Of a stretch of 64,000 nt of DNA, positions 7,447 to 36,007 are shown piece after piece. Numbering within the stretch: position 1 is the stretch's first letter; the number at the start of each line of letters is the position of its first letter. The notes under the pieces are model-generated. The model did no database searches, had not been told where the DNA came from, and saw only the letters and a program-made list of their open reading frames with translations. Made by a program: the position numbers and the translations under genes. Source of the stretch: Luteimonas rhizosphaericola (GTDB lineage Bacteria; Pseudomonadota; Gammaproteobacteria; Xanthomonadales; Xanthomonadaceae); assembly GCF_029888045.1 (NCBI RefSeq), contig NZ_JARXRN010000028.1:225924-289923 (forward strand), written 5' to 3'.

Positions 7447-10400
7447 ATGAAGATGAAACTGCTCGACACGGCACTGCTCGGCATCCTCGCCGGCACGAGC
7501 GCCAGCGCCTCGGCGCAACAGGCCGAGCCGGCGAAGGCCGCGATCGAATGCAGCGATGAAGGCTGCAGCAGCGACGCCGGCGAGCTGGTGTTTCGCGTGC
7601 GCACGCGCAGCTACGACCAGCCGGTGACCACCGGTACCGGCGCACAGTCGTCCTCGGCCGCATTGCAGCCGGACCGCCGCGTGTCCGTCGCGCTCGACCA
7701 GCCGGGCCGCGCGGTGGCGCGCGGCACGTTCTCGGTGCAGTTGCCGGGCGGCGGCGCGATCTGGGCCACCGAGGATCCCGACCTGGGGGTGCCGGAGCTC
7801 AGCATCACCGCACCGTCGATGGTCGCCTTCGAAGCGGGGCGGATCGTCGAGCCGGTGCGCCTGTTCGTGCGCAGCAACTACACCGCCTTCGTCGACCGCT
7901 ACGAACTGCGGATCTACCGCGGTAACGATGGCGACCTCGTGTCGCCGGTGGCGAGCCTGGACCTCCCGGTCGAGGCTGCCGTGCAGAGCGAGTGGAACGG
8001 CGAACTCCCGGCGGACCTGCGCCTGCGCGCCGGCGACGAACTGGTCTACGTGCTTCGCGCCTACGATCGCGAAAGCAACTTCGACGAGACCTCGCCGCGC
8101 AAGCTGCAACTGGTGCGTCCGGACGAGGTCGAGCGCGCCCGCGGACAGGTGCGCGAGAGCGTGGAACGTTCGCTCGGCACCGCGCTGAGCGGCGACCAGG
8201 CGCTGACCCAGCAGCTGATCGAGGACGCATTCTCCGGCAACGGCCTGCGCCAGCAGAACATCCCGATCTACGGCTCGCGCGTGCGCGTGCAGGGTCGCAA
8301 CCTGCCGGAAGGCCGTTCGCTGCGCATCAATGGCGAGTCGTATCCGGTCGATCTTGAGCGCAAGTTCGTCGCCGAATACCTCGTGCCCGTCGGCCAGCAC
8401 CGGTTCGAGATCGGCCTCGATGGCCAGGACGGCGCCGCGCCGATCACGCATGCGCTCGACGTCGACGTCAGCGGCCGCTACTTCTTCGGCGTGGCCATGG
8501 CCGACGTCACCGTCTACCAGAACGACGCCAGCGGGCCCGGCCAGTCGCTGGCAATGGCCGGCCGCGAGGACGACATCCTCAGCGACGGCCGCCTGGCGTT
8601 CTACGGCAAGGCCAAGCTCGGCGGCAAATATCTCGTCACCGCCCAGGCCGACACCCAGAACCGTCCGCTGGAGGACCTGTTCGACGGCTTCACCTCGGCC
8701 GATCCGCAGGACGTGTTCCGGCGCCTGGATCCCGACCTGTACTACCCGACCTACGGCGACGATTCCCGCGTGTGGCGCGACGTCGACACCATGGGCCGCT
8801 TCTACCTGCGCGCGGACTGGGACAAGAACGAAGCACTGTGGGGCAACTTCGCCACCGGCTTCACCGGCACCGAGTACAGCCAGTACTCGCGTGCGCTGTA
8901 CGGCGCCGCGCTGAACTGGCGCTCGGGCATGGCCAACGCCTGGGGCGACCCGGTGACGCAGCTGCGCGCATTCGCCTCCGAGGCGCAGACCGCGCCCGGC
9001 CACAGCCAGTTCATCGGCACCGGCGGCAGCCTGTACTACCTGCGGCACACCGACGTGCTGCCCGGCTCCGATCGCGTGGTGCTGGAGGTGCGCGATCGCA
9101 CCACCGGCCGCGTCGAACAGCGCGTCGACCTGCTGCGCGGCGCCGACTACGAGATCGACGAGCTGCAGGGCCGCGTGCTGCTGACCCGCCCGCTGGCGCA
9201 GATCACCCAGCAGAACCTGCCGACGCTGACCCGCGACGCGCCGCTCGACGGCTTCGAGCAACGCCTGATCGTCGATTACGAGTGGGTGCCCAGCGACTTC
9301 GACGCCGACGACGTGGCCGCGGGCGTGCGCGGCAAGCACTGGTTCGGCGACCACATAGGCGTCGGCCTGACCCACGTCGACGAGAACCGCGCCGGCGAGG
9401 ACTACACCCTGACCTCGGCCGACGTCACCCTGCAGGCCGGCAAGGGCACCTACCTGAAGCTCGAGCACGCGCGCACCGAATCCACCAGCGCGCCGGTGTT
9501 CTTCTCCGACAACGGCGGCCTGAGCTTCACCCGCCTCAACCCGGCCGGTCCGCGCGAAGGCGAGGCCACCGCGGTCGAGGCGCGCGCCAACTTCCAGGAA
9601 CTGGGCTGGAGCCAGCAGCCGTGGAGCGCGGGCGCGTGGTGGCGCCAGGTCGATGCCGGCTACTCGATCTCGCGCTTCGATACCGGCGCCGAGGTCGAGG
9701 AATACGGCGCCGAGGTGCTGGGCGAGTTCACCCCGAACCTGGGCGTGTACGCACGCTACAGCCGCGCCGAACGTGCCGGTGACGTGCTGACCCAGGCGCA
9801 GGCCCGGGCCGAATGGCGGATCGGCGATGTGGACGCGCTCGCGTTCGAGTTGCGCCGGGTCGAGGAGGCGCGCGGCACGCTCGATGCCGCCGGCCTGCTC
9901 GGCGCCGCGCGCTACACCCGCCGCTTCGGCACCGCGCTGGATGTGTACGGCACCGCGCAGCTGACCCTGGACGACGACAGCGGCGCCTATGCCGACAACG
10001 ACGCCTTCACCCTCGGCGGCCGCTACAACTTCGCCAATCTCTCCACCCTCGGCGGCGAACTCACCACCGGTGACCGCGGCGACGCGGCGCAGGTCAACGG
10101 CGAGTGGCGGCGTTCGGCGCAGCAGAGCTTCTACGGCAGCTACACGTACTCGACCGACCGCAGCGACTACGACCCGCTGTTCAACCCCAACGCGCGCAAC
10201 GGCTGGACGCTGGGCCAGCGCTGGCGGCTGTCGAATCAGGTCAACGTGTTCAACGAGAGCCAGTTCCTGAAGAACCGCCGCGAGAGCGGGCTGGCGCACA
10301 CCTTCGGCCTGGATTTCTACCCGGCCCAGGGCTGGAACGTCGGTTTCACCCTGAGCGACGGGGAGCTGACCAATGCCAGCGGCGGCGAAGTCGACCGCCG

Positions 10401-29287: not shown

Positions 29288-30220
29288 TCAGTGCAGCCCA
29301 GGCGCGGGCGCCCGGCGTGCCAGCAGGTCGGCGTCGGCGCGCATGAACACGGCCGACGGCGGCTCGGAGGCTTCGCCTTCCGCGGTGCCGACCAGGAACG
29401 CCAGACCGTGTGCGGCCGCCTGGGCATGGAGCACCGCGCGCACTCGCGCCAGCACGGCGTCCGCGCCCGGCTCCTGCAGGACCAGGACGTACTCGGCGCT
29501 GCCGCTGCTGCGATTGGCGCTGTCGCCGCCGTGGCCGGCCAGCGCCTGTTCGAGTTCGCGGTCGATCTGCTCGAGCAGCTTCTCGGTGCGACGCTCGCCG
29601 TGGCGCGCCACCGTGCCGGCGTGGTCCTGCAGCTCCAGCAGGGCCAGCCGGTAGTGCGGCGAGGCGGCGGGTTCGGGAGACGGTGCAACAGTCGCCACGA
29701 ACGCCTCGTGCGCCAGCGCGCGTTCGCGCACGCGCGCCTCGAGCAGGGTCATGGTCAGGCGTGCGAGCGACTGCAGCGCCGCGCGCTGCTCGCCGTCGAG
29801 CGCGCGCGGCCGGTCGTCGAGCACGCACACGGTGCCGATCGCCGCGCCCTCGGGCGTGACCAGCGGCATGCCGGCGTAGAAGCGGGCGTCGCCGGTGGCG
29901 CCGTTGACCTGCGGGTTCGACGCGAAGCGCGGATCGGCGCGCAGGTCGGGAATCTCCATCAGCCGATCGGGGGTGCGGATGGCGTGATCGCACACGGCGA
30001 CGCTGCGGCTGGTCTCGGGTTCGGAATAGCCGGTGCGGGCCTTGAACCACTGCCGGTCGTGGTCGATCAGGCTCACCAGCGCGACCGGCGTGTCGCACAG
30101 GGTGGACGCCAGGCGGACGATGTCCTCGTAGGCCTGCTCCGGCAGGCTGTCGAGGATGCGGTAGCGCTCGAGCGCGCGCTGGCGCGCGGCTTCATCGGGG
30201 ACGGACGTGGCGTGCGACAT
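29288..30220 (-). CDS. GAF-domain sensor with degenerate GGDEF domain
   Basis: 310 residues from ATG 30218-30220. The GAF domain (about 20-165) has the pattern common in bacterial GAF-GGDEF sensors: RILDSLPEQAYEDIVRLAS, ALVSLIDHDRQWFKA, ETSRSVAVCDHAI and YAGMPLVTPEGAAIGTVCV. The C-terminal part (about 190-310) keeps the outline of a GGDEF domain (YRLALLELQDH... then LLEQIDRELEQAL). The catalytic loop, however, reads SGSAEYVLVLQ instead of GGDEF, so cyclase activity is not expected. It may bind GTP or act as a regulatory partner. It stands alone, about 70 bases after the serine hydrolase operon end. Confidence 0.75.
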   Translation of the reverse strand: MSHATSVPDEAARQRALERYRILDSLPEQAYEDIVRLASTLCDTPVALVSLIDHDRQWFKARTGYSEPETSRSVAVCDHAIRTPDRLMEIPDLRADPRFASNPQVNGATGDARFYAGMPLVTPEGAAIGTVCVLDDRPRALDGEQRAALQSLARLTMTLLEARVRERALAHEAFVATVAPSPEPAASPHYRLALLELQDHAGTVARHGERRTEKLLEQIDRELEQALAGHGGDSANRSSGSAEYVLVLQEPGADAVLARVRAVLHAQAAAHGLAFLVGTAEGEASEPPSAVFMRADADLLARRAPAPGLH

Positions 30221-30288: not shown

Positions 30289-31512
30289 TCAGCGGGATGT
30301 TCGGTCGCCTCCCGCAGCCAGCCGCTCCTCGACCGCGGTGAACGCCGAGCGCGCGCCGCGATCGGCCGCGTCCACGCCGGTCGCGAAGTACGTCACCCCG
30401 GTGCCGGAGGCGGGATCGATCCACAGGCCGGATTTGAGCCCGTAGGCGTCGCCGCCGTGGCCCACGCGCGCGACGCCGTCGCCGAACGGATCGTCCCCGC
30501 ACCTCGGTTGCGGGGTGGCGAGGGTCTGGGTCGCCAGGCCGTAGCGGCAGAAGAAGGCGAGTGCCTGCCCGTCGCCGGCGTCCTCCTCGTGGCCGAGGCC
30601 GTTGCCGGGCGCGCGGGTCCACGCCGGCGCCAGCAGCAGGCGCACGGACGCGGGCGAGAGCAGGCGCACACCGTCGACGCTGCCTTCGTTCAGCAGCAGC
30701 CGGCCGATCTTCGCCAGGTCGTGGGCGGAGATGCGCAACCCGCCCTGCGGCGAGAACAGCGCGCCGTTCTCGCCGGCGCGCCAGCGGTCGAGGTCGCACG
30801 GCGCACCGTCCGCGACGACCACCGGGCACGGCGCGGGACCGCCGCGATGGTCGTCGCGTACCGGCGTGCGCGCCGCGTCGTACAGCACCACGGCGCGCGC
30901 AGCCGTCGCCGCGTCGCAGCTGGCCCAGTTGTAGCAGCCATCGATGCCGAGCGGCGCCAGCACCAGGCGCGCCATCAGGCGGTCGAAGCGCTCGCCGGTG
31001 GCGCGCTCCATCACCTGCGCCACCAGCGGGAAGTTCAGGTTGGCGTAGCGGAAGAAGGTGCCGGGCGCATGCGCGGCGTCCCAGGCGCGCGGATCGTCCA
31101 ACAGCGGCGCCAGGGGTTCGCCGAGCGGCACCTGCCAGTAGCCGGCGCCGTCGGTGAGCGACGAGCGGTGCGAGAGCAGCAGGCGCAGGGTGATGGGCAC
31201 CTCCGGCCAGTCCCGGTGGCGCAGGGTCCAGCCGAGCTGTTCGGAGATGTCGGCATCGAGGTCCAGAGTGCCGGCCTCGACCAGCCGCAGCACCGCGATC
31301 GCCACCACCAGCTTGGAGATCGAAGCCACGCGTACCGGATCGTCCGCGGTCACGGCGCGCCCGGTGGCGGTGTCGGCCGGGCCGTCGGCCTGCGTGGACG
31401 TGACGCCTTCGCGGTCGAACGCCACCCGCACCGTCGCCACCGGCCCGTCTGCGGACGCTGCGCCCGCGGCCGCCAGCAGGAGCGTGGCGACGCATGCGGC
31501 GCGCCCGATCAT
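30289..31512 (-). CDS. Secreted serine hydrolase (class C beta-lactamase/DD-peptidase fold)
   Basis: 407 residues. Signal peptide [21 protein letters not shown]. Active-site motifs are SISK (within VASISKLVV, about 63-66), RYANLNF (Tyr-x-Asn) and GHGGDAYG in the KTG position. Such proteins act as D-aminopeptidases, DD-carboxypeptidases or esterases; the exact substrate is open. Several Cys residues in the mature part ([22 protein letters not shown]) suggest disulfides, fitting a periplasmic place. The ATG at 31512 overlaps the stop of the upstream flavin oxidase gene by four bases (ATGA), so both are translated from one message. Confidence 0.87.
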
Positions 31513-32720
31513 GCGAACACCTCCGCCAGCCGCTCCACCGCAGCCACCGACAGCGCGCGGTCGGGCGTGGTGTCGGCATTGTCGTAGTCGGAGGCCTGCT
31601 GCGCCTGCACCAGGATGCCGTCCGTGCGCGGCACCACGAACAGGTTGCGCCCGCCGTAGCCCAGCCCGTAGTCCACGCCCGGCTGCGGCACCAGGCGCGC
31701 GGTCTGCCCGCGCACCGGCACCACCGAGGCATCGCCCAGCAGGGCGCCGGCGCCATGGCCGGTGGCGTTGACCACGGTGGTCTCGCGCAGCGTCGTGAAC
31801 TCGCGTGGCGCGTGGAAGGTGCGGGTCTCGATCGCGCCGCCGAGTTGGAGGAAGTCGGCCAGCAGCAGGCGGGAATAGGCGTGCAGGTTGAACACCGGCT
31901 GCGCCGCGCGGCGCACCGACACGGCGCGGAACGGATGCGCGCCGGGCGCCAGGCGTTCGGCGGCCGGGGTGATGTCGCCCAGCAGCCGCCCTTCGAGCAT
32001 GGCGTAGCGCGGCTCGCGCTCGTCGCCGGCGTTCGCGCGGCGCGCGCCCGGCCCGTCGGACAGCCAGTAGAAATCGTGCCAGCCGACCGGTTCGCCCGGC
32101 AGTCCCAGCAGGGTCTGGAACGTGCGGAACGACGCGCGCGCCATGCGTTCCCACTGGGTCTCGAACGCGGGCGCGGCGTGGTCGGCCGAAGCGATGCGCG
32201 AGGCCGGCGACCACACCCCGGTGGCGAACGCCGAGGGCACCTGCGGCAGCCGTTCGCGCGCGTAGATGCGCACCTGCAGCCCGCTGCGCTGCGCCAGCAG
32301 GGCCGTGGTCAGGCCGATGGCGCCGCAGCCGACCACCGCCAGCTCGCGCGCGCCGGTCTCGCGCACCAGCCGCAGCGCCTCTTCCGCGGAACCCCAGGAC
32401 AGCGACCAGCCGGCGCCGCCGTGGCCGTAGCAGTGGACGATGGTGTGGCCATCCATGCGCTCGGCCTCGATCCGCGGGCCCTGCGCGCGGAACGGTCGGG
32501 TGCAGACGTCGACGGCGATGATCCGGTCGGCGCTGGCGCGGATCGGGACCAGGGGCGCCGGCGGCGCGAAGCGTGGCGCCGGCGCCGGCGCGGCGGCCGC
32601 GCGCGGGCCGGACGCGCAGGCACCCAGCAGCGGCGGCATCGCCAGCGCCAGCGTGGACGCGCCGACGGCGTGCAGGAAGCGGCGACGGCCGGGTGCGGGC
32701 TCAACAGGGACGGGACGCAT
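31509..32720 (-). CDS. Tat-exported lipoprotein FAD oxidase, circularly permuted D-amino-acid-oxidase fold
   Basis: 403 residues. A twin-arginine signal ([12 protein letters not shown], 11-22) runs into a lipobox (LLGAC, Cys35). The mature protein has the parts of D-amino-acid oxidase in changed order. [13 protein letters not shown] (66-78) and [15 protein letters not shown] (98-112) match the C-terminal strands of DAAO. They come before the FAD Rossmann motif VVGCGAIGL (129-137), which in DAAO is the N-terminus. ATGVWSPAS (167-175), VVNATGHGA (316-324) and RGQTARLVP (337-345) then follow in normal order. The Arg in TRPFR aligns with the DAAO substrate-carboxylate Arg. A D-amino-acid or related amine oxidase in the cell envelope is inferred. 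It is cotranscribed with the serine hydrolase. Confidence 0.8.
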
Positions 32721-32834: not shown

Positions 32835-34823
32835 ATGAACGCAGGATGCAGGGCGCCGGCAGGGCGAGTGGCCCTGGCGCTGGCAGTGATGCTCGCGGCG
32901 CCATGGCTGCCGGCACGTGCGCAGATCGATCTGGGGCCGTACGTCCGCGACGCCAGTTACGACGAGATCAAGATCTCGCCCGACGGCCGGCATTTCGCGG
33001 CCACGGTGCCGATGGAGGACCGCACCGTGCTTGTGGTGCTGGACCGGGAGGCCGGCAACAAGGTGGTCGCCGGCGGCATGGGCGTGCGCGACTCGGCCGT
33101 CCGGGATTTCTGGTGGGCCGACGATTCGCGCGTGGTGCTGTCGATGGCGCAGACGCTGGGATCGGAAGACGTCCTGCGTTTCACCGGCGAACTGCACGTG
33201 CTCGAGCTCGGCAGCAAGCGGATCAGGCGCCTGTTCGGCGTGGAGGACGACCATGGCCTGGTGCAGCGCGCGGGCAGCTCGACCATCGTCGAAGAAGCCG
33301 ACGTGATCGACCCGATGATCGAGAACCCGGACGAGGTGATGATCTCCACGTGGATGCCCGGGTCCACGCCGCACGGCACCCTGCCCAAGACCCATGCGGA
33401 GATGATCAACCTGCGCAGCGGACGACGCCGCGGCATCACCGTGGCGCCCGTGCGCGAGGCCACGTTCACGATCGATCCGTCCGGCGAGGTGCGTTTCGCC
33501 TCCGGCAGGGACGTGCGCAACTACAACCTGGTGTATTACCGCACCGACGCTGAGTCGCCCTGGCGCGTGGTGAACGAGGAGCAGAGGAGCGGGTTCAGCG
33601 CCTGGCCGCTTGGAATGGCCGCCGATGGCACGACCGCTTACGTTAGGATCACCCGCGACCAGGGGCCGGACGAGATCGAGGCGTGGGACATGCGCGACCT
33701 GTCGCGACGACCGCTGCTGCGCGATCCGGTGGTCGACCCGATCGCGATCGTGTTCGATGTCGACGGGCGCACGCCGGTCGGCGCGCGCTACATGGACGAT
33801 GGCGTGAAGCTCCGCTTCTTCGACGAGGCGTCGGCGATCGCCCGGCGTTACCGGATGCTGGAGAAGGCGTTCCCGGGGCTGGGGCTGAAGATCACGTCCA
33901 CCACCCGCGACGGCCGTCTCGCGCTCGTCCATGTCTGGAATGATCGCGAGGCAGGGCAGTACATGCTCTTCGACACGGTCGCGAAGGCCGCGAACAGCGT
34001 CTCGGCGAAGATGCTCTGGTTCGACCCTGCCGCGATGGCGCCGACCAAGCGGGTGTCCCTGCGCGCGCGCGACGGGCTCGCGCTGCATGGGTATCTCACG
34101 CGTCCGCGCACGGCTGGCGATGCCCCATTACCGCTGGTCGTGCTCGTCCACGGCGGGCCGTTCGGAGTGTTCGACACCTGGGCGTTCGACGAGGAGAGCC
34201 AACTGCTCGCGGCGGCCGGCTATGCGGTGCTGCGGGTCAATTTCCGGGGTTCAGACAACTATGGTCGCGCGTTCCGCAGCCTCGGCGCGCGCCAGTGGGG
34301 CGGGACGATGCAGGACGACCTGACCGACGCCACGCGCTGGGCGATCGAGCAGCGGATCGCCGATCCCGCCCGGATCTGCATTGCCGGCGCCAGCTACGGC
34401 GGCTATGCCGCGCTGATGGGCGTGGCGAAGGAGCCCGACCTGTACCGATGCGCCGTCGGCTACGTCGGCGTCTACGACCTGCCAGCGTTGCACGCCGACC
34501 GCGCGCGGACGCTGACATCGATGCGCTACTGGGTGGACGACTGGATGGGCGAACGCGCGACGCTGGCCGAGCGCTCGCCGGCCAACCTCGCCGATCGCAT
34601 CAAGGCGCCGGTGCTGCTCGCGGCAGGCGGCGCGGACGACATCGCCCCCGCGTCCCAGACGCGCCAGATGCAGCGCGCGCTGGAAAAGGCCGGCGTGCCG
34701 GTGCGCACGTTGTACATCGACAGCGAGGGCCACGGCTTCCGCAAGCCGGAGCACCGCCGCCGCTACTACACCGAACTGCTCGCGTTCCTGTCCGACCACC
34801 TCGGCGGCGCCCGCGGCCAATAG
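32835..34823 (+). CDS. Secreted S9-family (prolyl-oligopeptidase-type) peptidase
   Basis: 662 residues from ATG 32835, preceded by AGGGGAAAA. Signal peptide about 1-30, ending ARA. A seven-bladed propeller-like region (about 35-390) precedes the alpha/beta hydrolase catalytic domain. The triad is visible: GASYGGYAA (Ser nucleophile, about 519), GGADDIAP (Asp) and EGHGF (His). HGGPFGVFD and NFRGSDNYGRAF are the usual oxyanion-region motifs. Such enzymes cleave short peptides in the periplasm; many are encoded in Xanthomonad genomes. It is divergent from the flavin oxidase operon; the 114-base gap probably holds both promoters. Confidence 0.9.
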   Translation: MNAGCRAPAGRVALALAVMLAAPWLPARAQIDLGPYVRDASYDEIKISPDGRHFAATVPMEDRTVLVVLDREAGNKVVAGGMGVRDSAVRDFWWADDSRVVLSMAQTLGSEDVLRFTGELHVLELGSKRIRRLFGVEDDHGLVQRAGSSTIVEEADVIDPMIENPDEVMISTWMPGSTPHGTLPKTHAEMINLRSGRRRGITVAPVREATFTIDPSGEVRFASGRDVRNYNLVYYRTDAESPWRVVNEEQRSGFSAWPLGMAADGTTAYVRITRDQGPDEIEAWDMRDLSRRPLLRDPVVDPIAIVFDVDGRTPVGARYMDDGVKLRFFDEASAIARRYRMLEKAFPGLGLKITSTTRDGRLALVHVWNDREAGQYMLFDTVAKAANSVSAKMLWFDPAAMAPTKRVSLRARDGLALHGYLTRPRTAGDAPLPLVVLVHGGPFGVFDTWAFDEESQLLAAAGYAVLRVNFRGSDNYGRAFRSLGARQWGGTMQDDLTDATRWAIEQRIADPARICIAGASYGGYAALMGVAKEPDLYRCAVGYVGVYDLPALHADRARTLTSMRYWVDDWMGERATLAERSPANLADRIKAPVLLAAGGADDIAPASQTRQMQRALEKAGVPVRTLYIDSEGHGFRKPEHRRRYYTELLAFLSDHLGGARGQ

Positions 34824-34896: not shown

Positions 34897-36007
34897 ATGC
34901 GCGATGGCGACCGAAGAGCGACGGACCCGGGCGCGCACGCGCCGGGCGCGTTGCCGATCGCCAGCGACGTGCGGCTGTCGGAAGTGCTGGCGCAGGTCTC
35001 GCGCGAGGCGCTGCAGGCGGACGGCCTGGACGAGGTGCTGCAGCGGCGACTGCGTCGTGCGCCGGCTTCCCGTGCCGATCGCCAGCATCATCCTGCTCGA
35101 CGACGGCGGCACCCGCTTCGTCAAGGAGGTGTGGGCGGGCGATATCCCGCTGGCCGAGATCGACATGGCGATCTGGGACGTGTCGATGGGCATCGCCGGG
35201 CGCTGCGCGCGCACCGGCAAGCCGCAGCTGATCGCCGACGTGGCCGCCGATCCCGACTACGTGATGGGCAACCCCACCGTGCGCTCGGAGTACGTGGTGC
35301 CGATCCGCCACCGCGGGCGCCTGCACGGCGTGCTCAACATCGAGAGCACCGGTGACGAGTTCTTCACCGCGCAGACCTGCGCGGTGTTCGACGCGATCGC
35401 CCACCAGGTCGCCGGCGCGATCCACCTCGCGCGCGTGGTGGCCGAACTCGAAGCCGCCAACCGCAAGCTGCGCGAGCTCTCGCTCGTCGACGGCCTCACC
35501 GGGCTGGCCAACCGTCGCTGCCTCGACGAGCGCCTGGCCGACGCCTGCGCCGACGGCCAGGGGCCTCTGGCGTTTCTGCTGATCGATGCCGACTGCTTCA
35601 AGCAGCTCAACGACGCGCTCGGCCACCTGCACGGCGATGAATGCCTGCGCCGGCTGGCGCGCCTGTGCGCAGGCACCGCGACCGGGGACGATGGCCTGGC
35701 GGCACGTTACGGCGGCGACGAGCTGGCGCTGCTGCTGCCCGGGCGCGATGTCGCCGCGGCACTGGCGATCGCCGAACGGCTGCGGCGGCGCGTGGAGGAA
35801 GCGGCGATGGCGCACCCGGTCTCGGTGGTGGCGCCCTGGGTCACGGTGAGCATCGGCGTGCATGTGCTGCCGCCGGGTCCCGCGCGCACGCCGTCGCGGC
35901 TGCTCGCGGGCGCGGACCGGGCGCTGTACGCGGCCAAGCTGGCCGGACGCAACCGCGTGGCCGAAGCGCCGCCTTCGCGGACGCTGGCGGTCGATGCGCG
36001 CGCCTGA
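34897..36007 (+). pseudogene. GAF-GGDEF diguanylate cyclase with an apparent frameshift
   Basis: Two frames are needed. From ATG 34897 the protein reads MRDGDRRATD... LSEVLAQVSREALQAD, then LDEVLQ, a normal start for this family. From about 35048 the frame shifts by one and continues DCVVRRLPVPIASIILLDD into a full GAF domain and a GGDEF domain with RYGGDELALLLPG. The break lies in 35041-35050, as one extra or two (or five) missing bases. In the second frame the upstream codons give only Arg-rich shadow sequence. The catalytic loop is GGDEL, probably active if translated; no RxxD inhibitory site precedes it. It could be a real pseudogene, a sequencing error, or a gene starting downstream at an internal GTG. 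Confidence 0.7.

Follow-up and report, generated by a model that had tools for sequence, protein, structure and literature searches.

In the 64,000-nucleotide stretch of the Luteimonas rhizosphaericola genome analyzed here (contig NZ_JARXRN010000028.1, positions 225,924 to 289,923; hereafter the window), one gene very probably encodes a flavoenzyme with the fold of D-amino-acid oxidase (DAAO) in circularly permuted order, which shares a single branch with all the permuted relatives compared. The fold is a known one and the order of its parts is rotated; the sequences point to a widespread family that is predicted to be exported.

DAAO (EC 1.4.3.3) begins with the Rossmann motif and finishes with the GHGGYG strand and helix. 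In the window protein, a 403-residue frame on the minus strand, a 13-residue C-terminal-type block (residues 66-78) and a 15-residue block (residues 98-112) stand ahead of VVGCGAIGL (residues 129-137), as an earlier note on this DNA had described. GHGG, at residue 99, thus precedes GxGxxG, at residue 131, the reverse of canonical DAAO, whose flavin adenine dinucleotide (FAD) motif is N-terminal and whose GHGG is C-terminal. Against the DAO family profile PF01266 the protein scored 86.2 bits (gathering cut-off 27.9), and the two parts of the profile matched in swapped order: profile positions 2-297 aligned to residues 127-402 and positions 301-350 to residues 65-115 (profile length 353). The window protein therefore has no colinear start-to-end match, whereas two other DAO-family genes of the same genome matched positions 1-353 colinearly, in normal order. 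When residues 50-124 were searched alone, PF01266 was the sole family at E ≤ 0.01 (E 3e-4). Past the FAD motif the normal order is kept, and the protein ends at residue 403, right after one helix (residues 388-402 in the structure model). The earlier note had held that a second complete DAO C-terminus in homologues would overturn its reading; the window protein has a single GHGG and a single GxGxxG motif, hence no second C-terminus, and the join is a seamless one in a single frame without a repeat.

Comparison with solved enzymes gave the same order. A family profile built from 18 members, the window protein included, was aligned to solved chains; its positions 106-368 matched residues 9-268 of the human D-aspartate oxidase (DASPO) chain (independent E-value, i-E, 2.9e-29) and its positions 52-104 matched residues 279-334 (i-E 5.6e-10), so that two colinear segments in swapped order cover the DAAO fold once, as in a circular permutant. 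The 17 solved DAAO and DASPO sequences listed start at profile position 106-112 and are thus of normal order. Relative to these enzymes (pig 1kif, human 6rkf, yeast 1c0k, fungal 7ct4), the permuted protein carries their last ~65 residues at its front, is predicted to be exported and, in the window's clade, lacks the substrate-binding Tyr. In other PF01266 enzymes of the DAO family, such as the glycine oxidase ThiO, the order is normal and the similarity lower.

The structure of the window protein was modeled with AlphaFold2 as a whole chain, monomer only. The block of residues 60-121 forms three strands and a helix; the per-residue confidence (pLDDT) was below 50 for residues 1-40, 60 for residues 41-50, 84 for residues 51-60 and 97 for residues 111-130, which contain the seam between old C-terminus and old N-terminus. 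Judging by this confident whole-chain model and the order of its elements, the N-terminal block may pack where DAAO carries its C-terminal strands, a weaker point than the permutation itself. Together, block order in PF01266, profile alignment, structure model and homologues support the circular permutation that the earlier note proposed.

Spread and origin of the permuted order

Motif order was checked among listed matches, the best 120 of each protein search; lower-ranked matches may include canonical proteins, and the match sets for clade A (the window's clade) and its sister group, clade B, may overlap. The B-type query came from a group 37-41% identical, in the window's genus. All 120 listed proteins of the A-type search (best 120 of 2099 matches, E ≤ 0.001) were permuted, as were 119 of 120 in the B-type search (best 120 of 7130 matches, E ≤ 0.001), the exception being a fragment. 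The best 80 of 426 confirmed genome loci all had the GHGG block in front, with both motifs found by pattern in 78. Eight named phyla were represented among these 80 loci: Pseudomonadota (36), Acidobacteriota (16), Gemmatimonadota (9), Bacteroidota (9), Verrucomicrobiota (3), Cyanobacteriota (3), Myxococcota (1) and Planctomycetota (1), with 2 not assigned. Conversely, a canonical-order query returned 110 canonical proteins, 10 unclear by pattern and none permuted among 120 listed matches. An assembly error is excluded, since over 300 of the proteins and loci listed, in partly overlapping sets perhaps, have the same order.

Of the close homologues that carry a name, most are from Luteimonas, Xanthomonas and Stenotrophomonas, with an 85% match in L. 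kalidii, and Xanthomonadaceae homologues of the same order, which the earlier note had proposed to look for, were found. Within the window's family the gene is scattered, with matches in 41 of 297 genomes, a number of them weak or fragmented. Three genomes of that family (G630, G622, G525) have the match split into two or three pieces, and these copies look broken or cut by sequencing errors. Separately, a Phycisphaerales contig (L129) contains two permuted-order frames, at 1622-2782 and 7947-9125, about 5 kb apart.

Permuted rows were rotated into canonical order before trees were built, and the trees are unrooted. All permuted rows fell on one side of a branch with SH-aLRT support of 100 (108 rows); this branch had support of 100/100 in a careful 55-row tree and was present in 200 of 200 bootstrap trees. 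The normal order was taken as ancestral, since it is the one in which the remaining DAO enzymes of the PDB list align.

Two canonical sets share the GHGG block, the Arg and GxGxxG with the permuted proteins: compact DAAO-like proteins of ~311 residues (P0297-P0349) and Rickettsiella-type proteins (P0244-P0296). Unlike the permuted proteins, most of these have canonical order by pattern and little sequence ahead of the FAD motif. The GHGG-to-GxGxxG spacing is 33 residues in 96/121 clade A proteins, 117/120 clade B proteins and 66/78 loci, and the C-terminal tail plus N-terminal lead of the compact set comes to 32 residues in 40 of 52 proteins, about the length of the permuted seam. Direct joining of ends of this type would yield such a seam, with which other routes are also compatible. 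A compact ancestral DAAO probably fused head to tail with itself, new start and stop then becoming established in the loop that separates the final strands from the last helix of the substrate domain. With the new ends in that loop, the old C-terminal strands and helix would come to lie ahead of, and directly continuous with, the old N-terminal Rossmann strand.

Two observations concern the canonical sets themselves. One of the compact proteins, many of which have 311 residues, is named from Candidatus Thermoplasmatota; the first archaeal DAAO gene was reported only in 2022, according to PMC9844085. P0255, recorded under the firefly Abscondita terminalis, is 60% identical to the Rickettsiella-type query, reflecting either symbiont contamination or gene transfer.

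Predicted export signal, substrate pocket and gene neighborhood

Export calls were made from sequence patterns, the twin-arginine (Tat) pattern being lenient. The window protein has RRRFL (residues 12-16) before a hydrophobic stretch. The twin-Arg pattern occurred in 118/120 clade A proteins, 101/109 clade B proteins and 76/80 loci, and twin-Arg or Lys-Arg followed by a hydrophobic stretch in 114/120, 103/109 and 77/80, respectively. A lipobox pattern was found in 24/120 clade A proteins, 30/109 clade B proteins and 54/80 loci, and a lipoprotein anchor is therefore not general. The lipobox-like LGAC36 of the window protein has Gly at -2; Gly is unusual at that position. Of the combined Tat and lipobox signal inferred in the earlier note, the Tat part is supported by pattern in most of the proteins compared, and the window protein itself has a lipobox-like sequence. 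Canonical relatives mostly have at most 10 residues ahead of the FAD motif (107 of 114), which leaves no room for an export signal. Given a twin-arginine signal at the new N-terminus, the protein would be expected to fold with FAD in the cytosol before crossing the membrane via Tat; in the window's species it would probably then be anchored through lipidated Cys36.

The substrate-binding Arg of DAAO is present as Arg75, which we take to correspond to Arg 283 of pig and 285 of yeast DAAO. Arg occupies this column in 121/121 clade A, 118/120 clade B (the other 2 being gaps) and 27/27 canonical rows, and all permuted rows compared with canonical ones also have it. GHGG is invariant (121/121, 120/120 and 27/27). 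The clades part elsewhere in the pocket. DAAO binds the substrate carboxylate with a Tyr, presumably Tyr 223 in yeast and 228 in pig (DAAO/DASPO alignments helped in placing it), and this Tyr is kept in 119/120 clade B proteins versus 13/121 in clade A, where it is replaced by Asn, Phe or Ser. In the strand after this column clade A has Gln (119/121) where clade B has Gly (120/120), a GG having become Q plus a variable residue, and two residues before the Arg clade A has Cys (Cys73 in the window protein; 121/121) versus Gly in clade B (117/120, 3 gaps).

Clade B keeps the DAAO-type pocket residues, which makes it a strong contender for a D-amino-acid oxidase that is exported, and it probably is one. 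Clade A has kept Arg and GHGG, lost the Tyr and changed its pocket, and probably uses another amine or amino acid. Most likely, the window protein, once exported, would oxidize an amino-acid-type substrate held by Arg75 and pass electrons to O2 or another acceptor, and we lean slightly towards a substrate of that type. The earlier note had called activity likely on the strength of the Arg and GHGG; both are indeed kept, and the expectation of activity is weakened by Phe361 and by the loss of the Tyr in 108 of 121 clade A proteins.

The start codon of a serine hydrolase gene overlaps the oxidase stop codon in the window (ATGA; Table 1), and the two genes are likely to be cotranscribed. The hydrolase has weak, sub-cut-off likeness to the DD-carboxypeptidase AmpH, to D-aminopeptidase and to others. 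Of 21 neighborhoods examined, 3 contained the pair, namely that of the window and those of two other genomes from its genus. A gene for an amino-acid permease homologue is found close to 13 of these 21 loci, arranged in one of two ways; three B-type loci have one no more than 350 bp away. These neighbors would fit amino-acid release and oxidation outside the cytoplasm, a link that we infer; the S9 peptidase gene probably does not belong to the system. In seven sphingomonad loci (L094, L096, L097, L099, L103, L104, L115) the permuted gene, at ~7.8-9.0 kb, lies between two genes that, by eye, we take to be HslV-like and HslU-like, 18-1015 bp past the former and 34-65 bp ahead of the latter.

Table 1. 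Features of the permuted oxidase gene and its surroundings, in window coordinates
Feature	Position	Strand	Basis
Whole gene, 403 residues; predicted exported FAD-dependent oxidoreductase, circularly permuted DAO/DAAO fold	31509..32720	minus	open frame
Residues 1-36, predicted Tat signal with RRRFL (12-16) and lipobox-like LGAC36	32613..32720	minus	sequence
Residues 37-59, Ala/Pro-rich linker from export signal to fold	32544..32612	minus	sequence
Residues 60-121, equivalent of DAAO C-terminal strands and helix, here N-terminal	32358..32543	minus	PF01266, family profile, model
Residues 75-78, RPFR; Arg75 equivalent to DAAO substrate-binding Arg	32487..32498	minus	alignment column conservation
Cys73, two residues ahead of substrate Arg	32502-32504	minus	alignment column
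Residues 99-102, GHGG motif	32415..32426	minus	motif, column conservation
Residues 119-126, seam from old DAAO C-terminal helix into old N-terminal strand	32343..32366	minus	spacing, pLDDT
Residues 126-403, equivalent of DAAO 1 to ~268 (FAD/Rossmann and substrate domains)	31512..32345	minus	
Residues 131-136, GCGAIG dinucleotide-binding motif, internal rather than N-terminal	32313..32330	minus	sequence, motif
Phe361, at position of DAAO substrate-binding Tyr	31638..31640	minus	alignment column
Downstream serine hydrolase gene, 407 residues, PF00144 Beta-lactamase family	30289..31512	minus	family match; signal peptide by eye
Divergent neighbor, S9 prolyl-oligopeptidase family peptidase	32835..34823	plus	family match
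GAF-domain protein, flanking region	29288-30220	minus	
GAF-GGDEF diguanylate cyclase, flanking region	34904-36007	plus	

Alternative explanations

Several results count against a permuted, exported DAAO-type oxidase that arose by head-to-tail fusion. Residues 50-124 alone reach 20.8 bits against PF01266, under its gathering score, and the N-terminal block folded alone yielded a weak model that matched nothing in the PDB; these two results would suit a GHGG-like block that resembles DAAO by chance, or a truncated DAO protein that bears an unrelated domain. This block, on the other hand, matches the PF01266 positions left uncovered by the other one, the family profile finds its counterpart in solved DAAO and DASPO C-termini at i-E 5.6e-10 and 6.5e-14, and within each clade 118-121 of the 120-121 proteins retain its Arg and GHGG; the profile matches largely refute a chance or unrelated block, which we regard as exceedingly improbable. 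Among the NCBIfam families listed, none exceeded its cut-off for the window protein. In a coupling analysis 39 of the top 100 pairs joined the N-terminal block to the rest, versus 32% of all pairs, a comparison confounded by clade structure. Coupling and sequence data do not distinguish contacts within a chain from those between chains, and the model is of a monomer; both would accommodate a permuted fold whose N-terminal block supplies the missing part of a neighboring subunit's FAD domain in a dimer. Such a segment swap is nonetheless quite improbable, since the seam is modeled at pLDDT 97 and has about the length of the combined tail and lead in one compact canonical set, which would let the block pack against its own chain. 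As to origin, tail plus lead spans 28-61 residues in 50 Rickettsiella-type and 31-65 residues in 11 other canonical proteins, and no intermediate with tandem or duplicated ends was seen among the listed relatives, in which no dedicated search for one was made. The missing intermediate would agree with a gene that was split in two and whose parts were later rejoined in swapped order, in place of tandem duplication and trimming. We consider this route unlikely, though much less so than the swap: a 33-residue seam against 32-residue canonical ends is the expectation for head-to-tail fusion, and re-fusion could match it too.

The remaining counterpoints concern function. Export has the lenient Tat pattern as its support, the window protein has Phe361 in place of the substrate Tyr of DAAO, and neighbor genes are not broadly conserved, which makes the substrate a guess. 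There is close to an even chance that the window's clade has given up amino-acid oxidation and comprises FAD-dependent dehydrogenases, or oxidases for another amine, on the exported permuted scaffold. The clade A replacements of Tyr, Gly and Gly, at positions that clade B retains, speak for such a change; the kept substrate Arg and GHGG speak against it, as do the 13 neighborhoods with a permease homologue, all of which belong to the window's family.

Significance of the permuted family

In an open-access library of 5.39 million papers, a search that did not extend to subscription papers or preprints, we found no report that a DAAO-type FAD oxidase occurs naturally in circularly permuted form. 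In the parts available, PMC4432964 includes 54 circular permutations, which it does not name, in its tally of partial-domain cases, and the string 'permut' is absent from PMC9844085 and PMC4699246. PMC9844085 (2022) describes bacterial DAAO genes as hard to find, with just over 10 identified and three enzymes cloned and described.

The rotated order may explain this apparent rarity. A broader scenario, which we put forward tentatively and hold to be somewhat doubtful as a whole, is that permuted Tat-exported DAAO-type oxidases are the main Gram-negative form, overlooked for their rotated order; that the permutation was selected to free the N-terminus for an export signal away from the FAD site, at which the canonical first strand is buried; and that the Xanthomonadaceae-type clade evolved a new exported flavoenzyme activity. 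The contrast between clades A and B makes the change in the substrate pocket directly testable. If active, the permuted proteins would constitute a large pool of exported D-amino-acid oxidases, with a bearing on peptidoglycan-derived D-amino acids and on extracellular H2O2.
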